Shown here piece after piece: positions 56,423 to 64,000 of a stretch of DNA of 64,000 bases. The notes below the pieces were generated by a model. The model worked only from the letters and a program-made list of their open reading frames with translations, did no database searches and was not told the origin of the DNA. The stretch comes from a bacterium (GTDB taxonomy: Bacteria > Vulcanimicrobiota > Vulcanimicrobiia > Vulcanimicrobiales > Vulcanimicrobiaceae): assembly GCA_021832345.1 (NCBI GenBank), contig JAKBKY010000001.1:644385-708384 (forward strand), read 5' to 3'. Position 1 is the stretch's first letter, and each line of letters opens with the position of its first letter. The position numbers and the translations under genes are program-made.

Positions 56423-56511
56423 CGTTCCGAGGAGAGCTGCATCGCACGGCCATCATGACAGCGGTGCGCGGCGATGGGTTCGCGGAAACACCTGAGGAGA
56501 AACCTGGTATA

Positions 56512-57201
56512 ATGAGCACGATGATCGACACGCTTGCGCTTGCAAAGCGGCTGCGGGCTGCAGCGGGATCTGACAACTATGCCGATGAGCTGGCAGAGGC
56601 GATCGGTAACGCCGTCAACGAGCGCGCCGTGACCAAAGCCGATCTGGGGGCACTAGCTGACCAGACCAAGGCAGACTTCGGGTTGCTGAAAGCCGATTTT
56701 AAGGCGCTCTCCGATCAGACCAAGGCAGACTTCGGGTTGCTGAAAGCCGATTTCAAGGCGCTCTCCGATCAGACCAAAGCAGACTTCGGGTTGCTGGAAG
56801 CCGATTTTAAGGCGCTCTCCGATCAGACCAAAGCAGACTTCGGGTTGCTGGAAGCCGATTTTAAGGCGCTCTCCGATCAGACCAAAGCCGACTTCGGGTT
56901 GTTGAAAGCCGATTTTAAGGCGCTCTCCGACCAGACCAAAGCCGATGTGAAGGCGCTCTCCGATCAGACCAAAGCAGACTTCGGGTTGTTGAAAGCCGAT
57001 GTGAAGGCGCTCTCCGACCAGACCAAGGCAGACTTTGGGTTGCTGAAAGCCGATTTTAAGGCGCTCTCCGATCAGACCAAAGCCGATGGTACCCTCATGA
57101 GAGCAGAGCTCACGGCAAACATGTCTAAGGGCCTGTTGAATCTCTTCTTTGGGCTGACCGGCGTCATCGGGGTTGCGACCGCGCTAATCCTCCATCGCTA
57201 A
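56512..57201 (+). CDS. Coiled-coil membrane protein with 18-residue tandem repeats (DUF1640-like)
   Basis: The ATG at 56512 is preferred because GAGGAGA lies about 10 bases upstream. The N-terminus (DTLALAKRLRAAAGSDNYAD followed by ELAEAIGNAVNE) fits the DUF1640/CCDC90 group. A tandem repeat TKADFGLLKADFKALSDQ follows (seven full units, one short), then a C-terminal membrane helix (LLNLFFGLTGVIGVATALIL). The 230-residue protein should be a long helix anchored by its C-terminus. Function is unknown; related proteins are often phage- or transposon-associated in bacteria. Confidence 0.8.
   Translation: MSTMIDTLALAKRLRAAAGSDNYADELAEAIGNAVNERAVTKADLGALADQTKADFGLLKADFKALSDQTKADFGLLKADFKALSDQTKADFGLLEADFKALSDQTKADFGLLEADFKALSDQTKADFGLLKADFKALSDQTKADVKALSDQTKADFGLLKADVKALSDQTKADFGLLKADFKALSDQTKADGTLMRAELTANMSKGLLNLFFGLTGVIGVATALILHR
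56665..57075 (+). repeat. 54-bp in-frame tandem repeat array
   Basis: Seven 54-bp units and one 33-bp unit run without gaps. Units differ at few bases (E/K, V/F). The short unit (TKADVKALSDQ) lacks the 7-residue FGLLKAD part. Near-identity implies recent expansion by slippage or unequal crossing over. Confidence 0.9.
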
Positions 57202-59107: not shown

Positions 59108-59470
59108 ATGAACCTCAAGACTTTTCTCGGAGCTATGATTTTTGTCGCCGCGGGCTTCATTGCCGCCCCAGTCGCCGCAACGGCTGCTCCAATTCAAACG
59201 GTTAAGATCACCGCCCATCAATGGGCCTTCGCACCGTCGGTCATCGTCGTCCATGTCGGACGACCGGTAAAGTTCCTTATGACGAGCAAGGACGTAACGC
59301 ACGGCCTCGCGTCGACCGCTCTCGGTATCGCCGACACGCCCATTTCGAAAGGCAAGATCAGCACCGTGACGTTTACCCCGAAGAAGGTCGGTACGTATCG
59401 TGTACATTGCGCAGACTTCTGCGGGATGGGTCATGGGGACATGGTCTTGACCGTCAAGGTCGTCAACTAG
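59108..59470 (+). CDS. Exported CuA-type cupredoxin (COX2-like)
   Basis: The 120 residues start with a signal peptide (MNLKTFLGAMIFVAAGFIAA, cut near ATAAP). The mature protein is a single cupredoxin domain with DVTHGLAS and HCADFCGMGHGDM, the C-x3-C-x3-H-x2-M ligand set of a binuclear CuA site as in cytochrome oxidase subunit II. No membrane anchor besides the signal is present. It probably passes electrons to the heme-copper-like proteins encoded at 62.4-64 kb. Confidence 0.88.
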   Translation: MNLKTFLGAMIFVAAGFIAAPVAATAAPIQTVKITAHQWAFAPSVIVVHVGRPVKFLMTSKDVTHGLASTALGIADTPISKGKISTVTFTPKKVGTYRVHCADFCGMGHGDMVLTVKVVN

Positions 59471-59552
59471 GGGATCACGGCACCCTTTCGGTTGTCCGTA
59501 GCGCTTGGTGTGATGCTTGCCCTGTTGAGCTTGCATCCACCGGCGCCTTGGG

Positions 59553-60038
59553 TCAGCGGGCGTTCGCTTGTTCGGCCACCTCCTCGGCGCGATAACGCGT
59601 TTCCATCTCTTGCCCGAGCCGATCGAGAAGTTCACGCGCGGTGAGCGAGGCGATACGCGAGCCAAGCATCGCGTCGAATGCGGCGCCGGCGATTCCCAAG
59701 GGAGGCTGATAGTGTCCGCGGAGTTCCAACATGCTGCGTTCGCGGGTGCCTTCTGCGCGGACCGCCAGCACCCCATCAAACTCCGGGTAAAGGCCACCAT
59801 TATACGGGGTCCAATGCACGCGCCAGAACTGCTCGAAGCGCACGGGACCGTTGCCGACGTCGTAGGTCACCAGAACATCCTTACGTAGGCCACGCCCGTG
59901 CATGCCGGCAAATCGCACACGAAGTTCGAGTCGCTGCGGTACTTTGCTCTCGGCGGCCGGTGCGAGCATCCCTTCTAGATAGTCACGCGCCCGAACATAC
60001 GGGCAGAGAAGGCGTCGCTGCTGGAATAAATCCGACAT
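59553..60038 (-). CDS. SRPBCC/START-like domain protein
   Basis: This 161-residue protein looks like an SRPBCC fold: RLELRVRFAGMHGRGLRKDV, FEQFWRVHWTPYNGGLYPEF, DGVLAVRAEGTRERSMLELR, and a C-terminal helix (SLTARELLDRLGQEMETRYR). Such proteins bind hydrophobic ligands; the specific role is unknown. It is divergent from the radical SAM operon and shares the intergenic region with motif copy 2. Confidence 0.6.
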   Translation of the reverse strand: MSDLFQQRRLLCPYVRARDYLEGMLAPAAESKVPQRLELRVRFAGMHGRGLRKDVLVTYDVGNGPVRFEQFWRVHWTPYNGGLYPEFDGVLAVRAEGTRERSMLELRGHYQPPLGIAGAAFDAMLGSRIASLTARELLDRLGQEMETRYRAEEVAEQANAR

Positions 60039-60082
60039 GCCGGAATAGTAACAAGGAACGGGTACCCTGGTGTGAAGGCGTA

Positions 60083-60098
60083 TTCTCGAAATCTTCTC
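60083..60098. promoter_or_regulatory. Shared 16-base motif, copy 2
   Basis: Second exact copy of TTCTCGAAATCTTCTC, 66 bases before the radical SAM start at 60165 and about 45 bases from the divergent SRPBCC gene start. TATATG just before the ATG (about 60155) may be the -10 of the operon. Confidence 0.45.
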
Positions 60099-60164
60099 TC
60101 CGGGGCCGCCCTTCCCGAGTTCTTCTCATCCTCGTGACTTCTTCCGTGTATCCTTATATGACTT

Positions 60165-61220
60165 ATGGAAGCAGTTCCCGGTCAGACCTACGACGATGCT
60201 CCCCGGATCGTCATATGGGAGTTGACGCGCGCCTGTGCGCTTGCTTGTCGTCACTGCCGCGCTGAGGCGATCCCGCATCGGGATCCTCGCGAGTTGAGCA
60301 CGGCGGAAGCCCGGGCCCTGATCGACGCGGTGGCCGAGTGCGGTCGCCCGCTCTTCGTGCTGACCGGCGGCGACCCGTTGATGCGCGACGATCTGTATGA
60401 GATCGTCGAATACGGCGTGAGCGCGGGCTTGCGACTGGCGGTCTCGCCCAGTGCAACCGGGCGCTTGACGCGTCGTGCGCTTGAGCGGCTTGCGGCGGCA
60501 GGGTGCTCCCGTATATCGTTGAGCATCGATGCTCCCGATGCGCAGAGTCACGATGCGTTCCGCGGTGTCAAGGGGTCCTTCGGGCGTACGCTTGACGGGC
60601 TGCGGCATGCGCGAGAGTTCGGGATCGAAGTGCAGATCAATACGACGATCTCGCGCTTCAATCATACGCGCATCGCAGAGATGGCCGAGTTTTTGACGCC
60701 GCTCCAGATTGCGCTCTGGAGTGTCTTCTTTCTTGTGCCGGTCGGCCGGGGACAAGCGACGGAGTGCCTGGACGCGCACGAAACGGAAGCGGCGTTCGCT
60801 GCCCTCTATGCCGCCATGAAATATCTGCCGTGCCCGGTGAAGACGACCGAGGCCCCGCACTTTCGTCGCTTCGTCGCTCAGCGGCAAGCGCAGCCCTCGC
60901 CGCGTGGTGGTGGGATTGGGGACGGCCGCGGGTTCGTCTTTATCTCGCATATCGGCGAGGTGCACCCCAGCGGCTTTCTGCCGTACGTCGTGGGCAACGT
61001 GCGTGAGTCCCGCTTGATCGATCTCTATCGCGATGATCCGATCATGCAAAGTTTGCGCCGGCCCGATGGCTTCGGCGGCAAGTGCGGGAGCTGTGACTAC
61101 CGGTATCTGTGTGGCGGCTCGCGGGCTCGAGCGTTCGCGTATACCGGAGATTTGCTGGCGCAGGAGCCGTCTTGTCTGTATCAAGCACCCAAAACTTCGT
61201 GTGAGGTGACCCATGCTTAA
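60165..61220 (+). CDS. Radical SAM/SPASM protein, NirJ/AhbD-like (first of pair)
   Basis: The 351 residues include the cluster motif CALACRHCRAEA (C-x3-C-x2-C, about 25), LFVLTGGDPLMRDDLYEIVE, ISLSIDAPDAQSHDAF and a SPASM-type auxiliary cluster region (GKCGSCDYRYLCGGSRARAF, then PSCLYQ). It fits the group of SPASM radical SAM proteins next to heme-modifying enzymes (TIGR04053-like). The product may modify a heme or a peptide. It overlaps the next gene by 8 bases. Confidence 0.85.
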   Translation: MEAVPGQTYDDAPRIVIWELTRACALACRHCRAEAIPHRDPRELSTAEARALIDAVAECGRPLFVLTGGDPLMRDDLYEIVEYGVSAGLRLAVSPSATGRLTRRALERLAAAGCSRISLSIDAPDAQSHDAFRGVKGSFGRTLDGLRHAREFGIEVQINTTISRFNHTRIAEMAEFLTPLQIALWSVFFLVPVGRGQATECLDAHETEAAFAALYAAMKYLPCPVKTTEAPHFRRFVAQRQAQPSPRGGGIGDGRGFVFISHIGEVHPSGFLPYVVGNVRESRLIDLYRDDPIMQSLRRPDGFGGKCGSCDYRYLCGGSRARAFAYTGDLLAQEPSCLYQAPKTSCEVTHA

Positions 61221-62400
61221 TGTGACGCGGCTGCTCTGCGATATCGCCCAACCCATGGATGCGTTGCGTTATGGTCGCGGAGCGGACGCACCGTCTTCGG
61301 CGCGGGAACGTAAGCCGGTGGTCGTCTGGAACGTTTCGCGGACGTGCAACCTGCGGTGCTTGCACTGTTACAGCGATTCGAATGCGCGCGCGTACCCGGG
61401 CGAGTTAACCTTCGAACAGGGCAAGGCGCTGCTGGAGGATCTGGCCGCCTTCGGCGTTCCGGCCGTGCTGCTCTCGGGCGGCGAGCCGCTGGCGCGTGGG
61501 GATATCTTGGCCTTAGCGACCTACGGGCGCACGTTGGGCCTCAAGTTCACGCTGTCCACGAATGGGACGCTGATCAACCGGAAGACGGCTGAGCGGATCC
61601 GTGAGATCGGCTTTGCCTACGTCGGCATCTCGCTCGACGGCATCGGAACGACGAACGACCTCTTTCGTGGAATGCCCGGCGCCTTTCATCGCGCCGTGCG
61701 CGGCATGCGCAACTGCCGGGAGGTGGGGCAGAAGGTTGGGTTGCGCTTGACCTTGACCGCTCAAACGGTCGATGACCTTGAGGCGATCTTCGACTTCATC
61801 GACACGGAGAAGATCGAGCGAGCGTGTTTCTACCATCTCGTTCCGACGGGCCGCGGTCGCCAGGCCGAAGGCCTTGCGCCGGAGCGCACGCGCCAAGCGA
61901 TGGAGACGATCTTTCGGCGGACCCGTGAGTTTGCCGAGCGTGGGGATCCGCGCGAGATCCTCACGGTGGACAACCACGCCGATGCCGCGTACCTCTACCT
62001 CTCGCTTGAAGCTTCGCAGCCGCAGGCCGCCGCTCGCGCCTACGATCTGCTCTCCTGGAACGGTGGCGCGAAGAACTCATCGGGCATCGGCATCGCCGAT
62101 ATCGATACGCAAGGCAACGTCCATCCCGATCAGTTCTTCCAGAGTGTGACGCTCGGCAACGTGAAGGATCGGCCGTTTAGTGAACTCTGGAGCGAGCCCG
62201 GCGATCCGATGGTGCTGCAACTGCGAGACCAAACGTCGCATGTGACCGGCCGTTGTTCCGGCTGTCGCTTCCTCCCGATCTGCGGCGGCGGCTTTCGGGC
62301 ACGCGCCTATAACGCCACCGGAGACCTCTGGGCGAGCGACCCTGGATGTTATCTGAGCGATGCCGAAATAGCTAGCGATGCCGAAATAGCTCTGCGGTGA
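61213..62400 (+). CDS. Radical SAM/SPASM protein, NirJ/AhbC-like (second of pair)
   Basis: The 395-residue product has NVSRTCNLRCLHCYSDSNAR (C-x3-C-x2-C, about 43), VLLSGGEPLARGDIL, GISLDGIGTTNDLFRGMPGA and a C-terminal CSGCRFLPICGGGFRARAYN auxiliary-cluster site. It is the NirJ/AhbC type that removes propionate or acetate chains in heme d1 or the alternative siroheme-dependent heme route. The tail ends SDAEIASDAEIALR because an 18-bp stretch is duplicated (62356-62391). It is coupled to the membrane gene by a 4-base overlap. Confidence 0.85.
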   Translation: MLNVTRLLCDIAQPMDALRYGRGADAPSSARERKPVVVWNVSRTCNLRCLHCYSDSNARAYPGELTFEQGKALLEDLAAFGVPAVLLSGGEPLARGDILALATYGRTLGLKFTLSTNGTLINRKTAERIREIGFAYVGISLDGIGTTNDLFRGMPGAFHRAVRGMRNCREVGQKVGLRLTLTAQTVDDLEAIFDFIDTEKIERACFYHLVPTGRGRQAEGLAPERTRQAMETIFRRTREFAERGDPREILTVDNHADAAYLYLSLEASQPQAAARAYDLLSWNGGAKNSSGIGIADIDTQGNVHPDQFFQSVTLGNVKDRPFSELWSEPGDPMVLQLRDQTSHVTGRCSGCRFLPICGGGFRARAYNATGDLWASDPGCYLSDAEIASDAEIALR

Positions 62401-63653
62401 GATCCCAGCGGACACGCGGTCCGGCGGGGATATTCGGGCGTCGGCATTGGATTCCACCGGGCGCCTTCGCCTTCGGGCAACTCGCGCACGGTGCATCGTG
62501 GCTCGTCGCAATCATTGCGGCGCTGACCCTGCTAACTGGAAGCGACGGCTGGCAACTGGCCTGGATTCACCTCGTCGTCCTGGGTTGGTTTACCACGATC
62601 GCCTTCGGCATTCTTCTGCACGCTTTACCGGCGTTTACTGACGGCGTCTGGAAAGCGGAGACGCTGGCTCGTTGGTCGATTCTCGGCTTTGCCGCAGGTG
62701 TGTTTGGGATGGTGGTGGCGTTTGCCGCCGCATCGCCGTGGTTGCTGTATGCGGGTATACTTTGCGCCCTTTTTGCCGGAGTATATATTCTGAGTGCGCT
62801 TATAACGCTGGCCAAACCGATGCTGTTGCACAGCGTCGAGGGTGCTGTGGCTCGCGCGCTCGCCATAACACTTGGATTGCTGCTGGCAACGGTTATCCTG
62901 GGCGTCTTGCTTGTGCTGATGCGTGTCGGCGTGCCGATGCCGTGGTGGATCGTCCGCGTGCCGTTCATCCATGCAACGCTGGGAACCGTGGGGTGGCTCT
63001 GCCTGCTGGTATTCGGCGTGTCGTTGCGCACACTGCGCCCGATCACCGGCGCTGCGCCCGGAACGCCGTGGATGCACATCGCTACCGGCACGCTCACGCT
63101 CCTGGCAATTGTAGGTTTGGCGGTCGGCGCCGCAGAGGCATCAGTCGCGCTCCTGTGGCTTGGGGCGGGATGCTTCGGCGCCGGCGCACTGCTCTATGTC
63201 GCCGATGTCGTCGATCGGCTCCGCCGCGCAACTGTTCGTCATCGTCTGCCGCAGGGCTTTGTCATCGCTTCGATCCTCTGGCTCATCGTGGCACTGGGGC
63301 TGGGTGGCGCTGCCTTGGCTGGAGATGTGCCCCCTTCAGCCTATCTCTTCGTGCTGCTTATCGGGTGGGTTGGGCAGATGGTCAACGCCCACGGCCATCA
63401 CATCGGCGTTCGCCTCATCGCCACGATCTACCGAGGAGAAGACGACCAGACGCCGCCGGAGAGGTTGCTCTCACCGTTGGCCGGATGGATGTCGTTTGTG
63501 CTCTTCCAAGTGGCGATCGCAGTTGTGGCGATCGGCTTGCTCTGCGCGAACGCGGGGCTGACGGCGTTTGGATCGGCCATCGGTTTTCTCGGGTGGTGTG
63601 CGATGAGCGCAAACATGCTCCATGCCAAGGGCCGCGCGTTGCAGTCAGCGTAG
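62397..63653 (+). CDS. Multi-helix heme-copper/NnrS-like membrane protein
   Basis: The 418 residues form about twelve hydrophobic helices. Conserved-looking histidines lie in FAFGQLAHGASW, WIHLVVLGWFTTIAFGILLH, PFIHATLGTVGW and VNAHGHHIGVRL, the kind of arrangement seen in NnrS and cbb3-oxidase-like subunit I relatives that bind heme or NO. The coupling with NirJ/AhbC-like genes supports a respiratory or nitric-oxide role. The heme set is not complete enough to call it an oxidase. Confidence 0.72.
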   Translation: MRSQRTRGPAGIFGRRHWIPPGAFAFGQLAHGASWLVAIIAALTLLTGSDGWQLAWIHLVVLGWFTTIAFGILLHALPAFTDGVWKAETLARWSILGFAAGVFGMVVAFAAASPWLLYAGILCALFAGVYILSALITLAKPMLLHSVEGAVARALAITLGLLLATVILGVLLVLMRVGVPMPWWIVRVPFIHATLGTVGWLCLLVFGVSLRTLRPITGAAPGTPWMHIATGTLTLLAIVGLAVGAAEASVALLWLGAGCFGAGALLYVADVVDRLRRATVRHRLPQGFVIASILWLIVALGLGGAALAGDVPPSAYLFVLLIGWVGQMVNAHGHHIGVRLIATIYRGEDDQTPPERLLSPLAGWMSFVLFQVAIAVVAIGLLCANAGLTAFGSAIGFLGWCAMSANMLHAKGRALQSA

Positions 63654-63671
63654 GATCTCATCTGAGTCAAC

Positions 63672-64000
63672 ATGCCGCTGGAAACCCGCTGGTTCGTCAA
63701 GACCTCACTGCTGTGGCTGGTGGCAGCCTTTGCCTTGGGCGCCATCATGCTGATCGTCCAGGCTTTCGGTCGGTCGATACCGGCGTCGATCATCGTCGCA
63801 CACACCCACATGGCCTTCGTCGGTTGGCTGGTGAACTTCATCATTGGGATCGCCCTCTGGATGTTGCCGGCGAATCGAGAGCGCTTCCCCAAGAATCGCG
63901 GGCGCTATCCCTCTGGGGCCGTCTGGGTCACCTTTTGGTTCTTGAACGTGGGCCTGGCGATCCGCGTCATTGTGGAGCCGCTTGCCGCGCCGCATACTCC
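63672..64000 (+). CDS. Heme-copper-oxidase-like membrane protein, 3'-truncated by window
   Basis: The ATG at 63672 opens a frame that continues past the window end (109 codons visible). LWLVAAFALGAIMLIVQAFG is the first helix and AHTHMAFVGWLVNFIIGIAL then WMLPANRERFP contains the H-x-H and GW pattern of cbb3-like subunit I relatives. It starts 18 bases after the previous stop, so it is in the same operon. A second member of the preceding protein's family is likely. Confidence 0.7.
   Translation, partial: MPLETRWFVKTSLLWLVAAFALGAIMLIVQAFGRSIPASIIVAHTHMAFVGWLVNFIIGIALWMLPANRERFPKNRGRYPSGAVWVTFWFLNVGLAIRVIVEPLAAPHT

Follow-up and report, generated by a model that had tools for sequence, protein, structure and literature searches.

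What do two neighbouring radical SAM proteins make when their genes lie between an exported copper protein and membrane proteins of oxidase-like fold? This question is raised by a locus at the end of a 64,000-nucleotide stretch of DNA (the window). The host is a soil bacterium of Candidatus Eremiobacterota (WPS-2) with a genome of 2.34 Mb that is 98% complete. A sequence-only reading had proposed a respiratory complex with an unusual heme. The gene set of the host and co-occurrence in 99 genomes of its family make a different answer probable. The pair, here called rSAM1 and rSAM2, would carry out the last steps of heme b synthesis from siroheme, with no need for oxygen.

The locus

The sequence-only reading had described a CuA cupredoxin, two SPASM radical SAM proteins, and two polytopic proteins lying together, and all five genes are confirmed (Table 1). 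It had also called the last four tightly coupled. This holds, as rSAM1, rSAM2, and the 418-aa protein gene are joined by overlaps of 8 and 4 bases, followed by an 18-base gap before the 143-aa protein gene. Many genomes of the family, and Verrucomicrobia as well, have the same rSAM1-rSAM2 order, so the pairing is more than chance. The CuA motif of the cupredoxin is CADFCGMGHGDM.

Table 1. Features of the rSAM1-rSAM2 locus, in window coordinates
Feature	Position	Strand	Remarks
CuA-type cupredoxin, exported, 120 aa	59108-59470	+	Pfam Cupredoxin_1 5.8e-12, COX2 3.4e-10
161-aa ORF, no family assigned	59553-60038	-	between cupredoxin and operon
rSAM1, TIGR04053 radical SAM/SPASM, AhbD-like; proposed oxygen-independent coproheme decarboxylase (heme b synthase)	60165-61220	+	
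rSAM2, AhbC-like radical SAM/SPASM; proposed 12,18-didecarboxysiroheme deacetylase	61213-62400	+	
418-aa 12-helix membrane protein, predicted heme-copper oxidase subunit I fold	62397-63653	+	
143-aa four-helix membrane protein	63672-64103	+	last 103 bases past window end

Read by eye, the sequence just downstream of the operon contains no nir, nor, or nos operon. A denitrification operon at this place, which the sequence-only reading had named as evidence against itself, was looked for and is not there; FabK- and FabI-like genes and then a benzoyl-CoA-reductase-like cluster are found instead. From window position 69991 onward (L002:14376 to L003), this cluster looks by eye like one for class I benzoyl-CoA reductase, accompanied by dehydrogenase and enoyl-CoA hydratase-like genes. 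A coiled-coil-like 248-aa ORF with repeated FGLLKADFKALSDQTKAD units lies at 56455-57201.

Family placement of the radical SAM proteins

Both proteins carry a CX3CX2C motif and a C-terminal CX2CX5CX20-21C motif. In rSAM1, the N-terminal radical SAM motif is C24-C28-C31, and the C-terminal one is C307-C310-C316-C337, with a spacing of X20. The latter falls within CX2CX5CX20-38C, a motif present in all AhbD examined (PMC10452713). Among NCBIfam models, rSAM1 exceeds the cut-off of TIGR04053 (440 bits against 395), and the AhbD model (TIGR04545) comes next with 319 of 500 bits. Because the TIGR04545 cut-off is missed and that of TIGR04053 is reached, rSAM1 is filed as AhbD-like, not AhbD. In a tree of 86 proteins, it lies inside the TIGR04053 clade (support 100/98), with AhbD as the adjacent sister group.

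A radical SAM protein of Haloferax larsenii, 47% identical to rSAM1, has the same pattern, scoring 502 bits with TIGR04053 (above the cut-off) and 343 with the AhbD model. Its gene neighbourhood is of the Haloferax AhbD type and suggests that it may be the orthologue of HVO_2144. A literature search turned up no papers on TIGR04053, and the family name carries no function. Haloarchaeal TIGR04053 genes are also found next to TIGR04347 pseudo-SAM and Htur_1727 RiPP-candidate genes (L195, L226).

rSAM2 scores 481 bits with NirJ1, 456 with AhbC (TIGR04546, cut-off 650), and 398 with NirJ (cut-off 515), each under its cut-off. A protein from a clear ahb operon (L134) is likewise under the AhbC cut-off, at 540. 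In the 86-protein tree, the rSAM2 proteins of the family group with AhbC of ahb operons with moderate support (87/87), and the NirJ clade (100/100) excludes them. Homologues of about 50-57% identity are located in HemA/HemC/CobA-HemD/HemB/AhbAB operons of several phyla. Full-length matches to the AhbC model above 330 bits are confined to genomes already found by the rSAM2 search. rSAM2 is accordingly filed as AhbC-like.

Model scores and tree bear out the earlier placing of both proteins in the NirJ/Ahb tetrapyrrole group. The comparison of family placements that the sequence-only reading had called for puts rSAM2 with AhbC and rSAM1 with TIGR04053/AhbD.

Heme genes elsewhere in the host genome

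Ferrochelatase (PF00762) is the usual iron-inserting enzyme. It was not detected in the 98% complete host genome, and the same search was positive in 8 of 14 control genomes. The siroheme genes, for which a search had also been suggested, are present. One operon encodes SUMT fused to HemD (CobA-HemD), a SirC-HemC fusion, HemB, HemL, and HemA, and thus includes both SUMT and precorrin-2 dehydrogenase. A protein resembling the redox regulator Rex (by eye) is encoded within the heme operon (L201:6910-7611).

An AhbAB-like fusion of 393 aa is encoded away from the rSAM1-rSAM2 pair. It contains two PF17805 (siroheme-decarboxylase-like) domains and matches the structures of NirDL (4ch7, 1.2e-5) and AhbA/B (4czd). 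The C half carries the HXYXR motif of siroheme decarboxylase (PMC4145669) as HAYWR, and the N half has HVVIR. The fusion gene shares 4 bases with the gene of a family 5 solute-binding lipoprotein (L076:421-3263), an order that is conserved in relatives.

ChdC and CtaA are also present, and CtaB (by sequence) adjoins CtaA. Only one heme-copper oxidase was found in the host genome. Its neighbours include paralogues of two window genes, the cupredoxin (72.5% identical) and the 161-aa ORF (62% identical). Homologues of the 161-aa ORF in relatives adjoin the rSAM pair or a hemE-hemH-hemY cassette. Exported proteins of ~400 aa with one CXXCH and no Pfam match are paired with CuA cupredoxins at several loci (L077:5992-7197, L053, L061, L063).

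Co-occurrence across the family

Profiles were compared in 99 genomes of the host's family. rSAM2 (28 genomes) and ferrochelatase (12 genomes) occur together in none of the 99 (p=0.018, phylogeny ignored). The AhbAB fusion is strongly anticorrelated with ferrochelatase (p=1.2e-6, phylogeny again ignored). rSAM1 accompanies rSAM2 in 27 of 28 genomes, and 32 of the 36 genomes with rSAM1 have either rSAM2 or ferrochelatase.

The ferrochelatase gene of relatives is often within a hemE-hemH-hemY cassette. In two genomes (G057 and G111), this cassette is near rSAM1 and cupredoxin genes, and G057 also has homologues of the 161-aa ORF. Other families of the phylum, too, have genes of the rSAM1 type next to ferrochelatase. 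The sequence pattern suggests that the source of coproheme, either the siroheme branch or hemE-H-Y, is swapped upstream of the same last enzyme. On the simplest logic, rSAM1 would act on coproheme, whichever branch supplied it.

A proposed route to heme b

The simplest product to propose is ordinary heme b, because rSAM2 groups with AhbC and rSAM1 with TIGR04053/AhbD, ferrochelatase was not found, and the genes of the siroheme route are present. The unusual heme of the sequence-only reading is disfavoured on the same grounds. From the presence, family placement, and co-occurrence of the genes, a series of reactions, an oxygen switch, and perhaps shared regulation may be inferred. Uroporphyrinogen III would be methylated and oxidised by CobA-HemD and SirC-HemC, and insertion of iron would give siroheme. 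The fused AhbA-AhbB-like protein would take two carboxyls off siroheme, and rSAM2 would then remove two acetates to give coproheme. Under scarce oxygen, rSAM1 would decarboxylate two propionates to yield heme b, and ChdC would perform the last step in the presence of oxygen. From heme b, CtaB and CtaA could go on to heme a, which the B-type oxidase would use. The respiratory partners sharing the locus would be the cupredoxin and the oxidase-fold proteins. Several points count against this scheme: ChdC would make rSAM1 dispensable under oxygen, the AhbC and AhbD model cut-offs are missed, tree support for rSAM2 with AhbC is moderate, AhbAB is encoded elsewhere, many family genomes have AhbAB without rSAM2, and a TIGR04053 gene adjoins nirS in Thermus.

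The scheme resembles the Ahb pathway of methanogens and sulfate reducers, which has SUMT, siroheme decarboxylase, AhbC-type and AhbD-type radical SAM proteins, and no ferrochelatase. Here, however, AhbA and AhbB are fused and encoded at a distant locus, a TIGR04053 protein would take the AhbD role, and ChdC, an oxidase, and CtaA/CtaB are also in the genome. A dual route is described in Haloferax volcanii, where AhbAB, AhbC, AhbD, and ChdC likewise occur together and no UroD, CgoX, or CpfC is reported. Deletion of ahbD harms anaerobic growth only, deletion of pitA (the ChdC gene) harms aerobic growth only, and heme rescues the deletions (PMC5746218). The ahbD gene is near nirK, norB, and blue-copper genes, a denitrification setting (PMC5746218). 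Unlike in H. volcanii, the system here is bacterial, the AhbC-like and AhbD-like genes are adjacent, and hemE-H-Y replaces the siroheme branch in relatives.

The AhbC step in relatives

AhbAB without rSAM2 is found in about 59 family genomes, which means that the route does not strictly require rSAM2. Completeness is 90% or more in 57 family genomes, and 34 of them lack both rSAM2 and ferrochelatase. AhbAB is encoded in 33 of the 34, SUMT in 32, and ChdC in 31. No clear candidate for an AhbC substitute was found beside SUMT, ChdC, and AhbAB in the rSAM2-lacking genomes. Either the 34 genomes have an unknown replacement for AhbC, or AhbAB is used there for something else.

It is a serious possibility, somewhat short of probable, that most of the family passes from siroheme to heme b without AhbC. 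An undescribed, probably oxygen-using enzyme would turn didecarboxysiroheme into coproheme for ChdC, and the rSAM pair would be an added low-oxygen arm. The cultivated Vulcanimicrobium alpinus, which may or may not be among the genomes searched, shows no anaerobic growth (PMC9758169), and this would fit an oxygen-using substitute for AhbC. Ferrochelatase and siroheme are not mentioned in that paper.

Alternative roles and the membrane proteins

The pair could instead make heme d1 or another modified heme, in the manner of NirJ, and supply it to a nitrite reductase or to an unusual oxidase. NirJ1 is the best NCBIfam model for rSAM2, and NirJ and NirJ1-NirJ2 of heme d1 synthesis are of the same superfamily, the latter also a tandem pair of related proteins. 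A TIGR04053 gene adjoins nirS in Thermus, directly downstream of it, and is there named NirJ (PMC5748679); another adjoins nosZ in a haloarchaeon. This role is nevertheless unlikely. rSAM2 is outside the NirJ clade and misses the NirJ cut-off, no cd1 gene is nearby, and no NirS-like sequence was found in the window or the host-genome loci examined. Moreover, only one heme-copper oxidase was found and CtaA is present, and in relatives rSAM1 travels with the hemE-H-Y cassette, in keeping with coproheme.

The proteins encoded after the pair bear on a second alternative. No Pfam family, COX1 included, matches the 418-aa protein. Its AlphaFold2 model (pLDDT 73) matches cbb3 subunit I (3mk7) in Foldseek (E 1.7e-5, TM about 0.70), and a subunit-I-like 12-helix fold is predicted. 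His58, 75, 192, 227, 332, and 335 are the only histidines conserved in close homologues. It resembles heme-copper oxidase subunit I in predicted fold and has conserved histidines, but shows no Pfam match to this subunit or to NnrS, and the full set of ligand motifs (HPxxY, HH, HxH) is absent from it and its close homologues. The sequence-only reading had coupled the pair to NnrS/cbb3-like membrane proteins. The heme-copper-like coupling stands, on the predicted fold, and the NnrS identity is not supported, as there is no PF05940 match and an hhalign profile comparison finds nothing. The 143-aa protein, which shares a unit with the 418-aa protein, has a weak COX1 match and an HxH motif. Its homologues are found in Thermus nir and Chloroflexi nar-type (nitrogen-oxide) clusters, and Foldseek gave nothing useful. 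The order rSAM1-rSAM2-NnrS is seen at three loci of Verrucomicrobia, including Akkermansiaceae records (L139, L146, L173).

The pair might serve the oxidase-like proteins (62397-64103) by altering or inserting a heme in their complex, and not supply bulk heme. The tight coupling to a subunit-I-fold protein and the true NnrS directly after the same pair in Verrucomicrobia are in its favour. Such an accessory role is as doubtful as heme d1 synthesis, since many loci keep the pair without oxidase-like genes (e.g., L056-L061, L065) and across genomes the pair follows the coproheme source instead.

That the proteins are peptide modifiers (RiPP maturases), is very improbable and was rejected on model scores and tree. 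Their SPASM domains might suggest it, as might haloarchaeal TIGR04053 genes, some of whose neighbours are annotated as rSAM-partnered RiPP candidates. However, both proteins score far higher on heme families than on peptide maturases, the coupled genes at the host locus show no sign of a small partner ORF between them, and the tree places both in the Ahb/NirJ group, not with the peptide-modifying enzymes that the sequence-only reading had set against itself.

Significance

The siroheme route to heme b is itself already known. The new elements are the bacterial setting and gene arrangement, the cassette swap, and the 33 good genomes with a gap. A literature search found no statements on heme synthesis in Eremiobacterota. 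With the proposed route, heme synthesis without ferrochelatase would extend to a phylum of bacteria that has an aerobic cultivated member. A likely function is now available for TIGR04053. The missing step in many genomes is exposed as well, and the enzyme may be findable by comparative genomics and testable by complementation.
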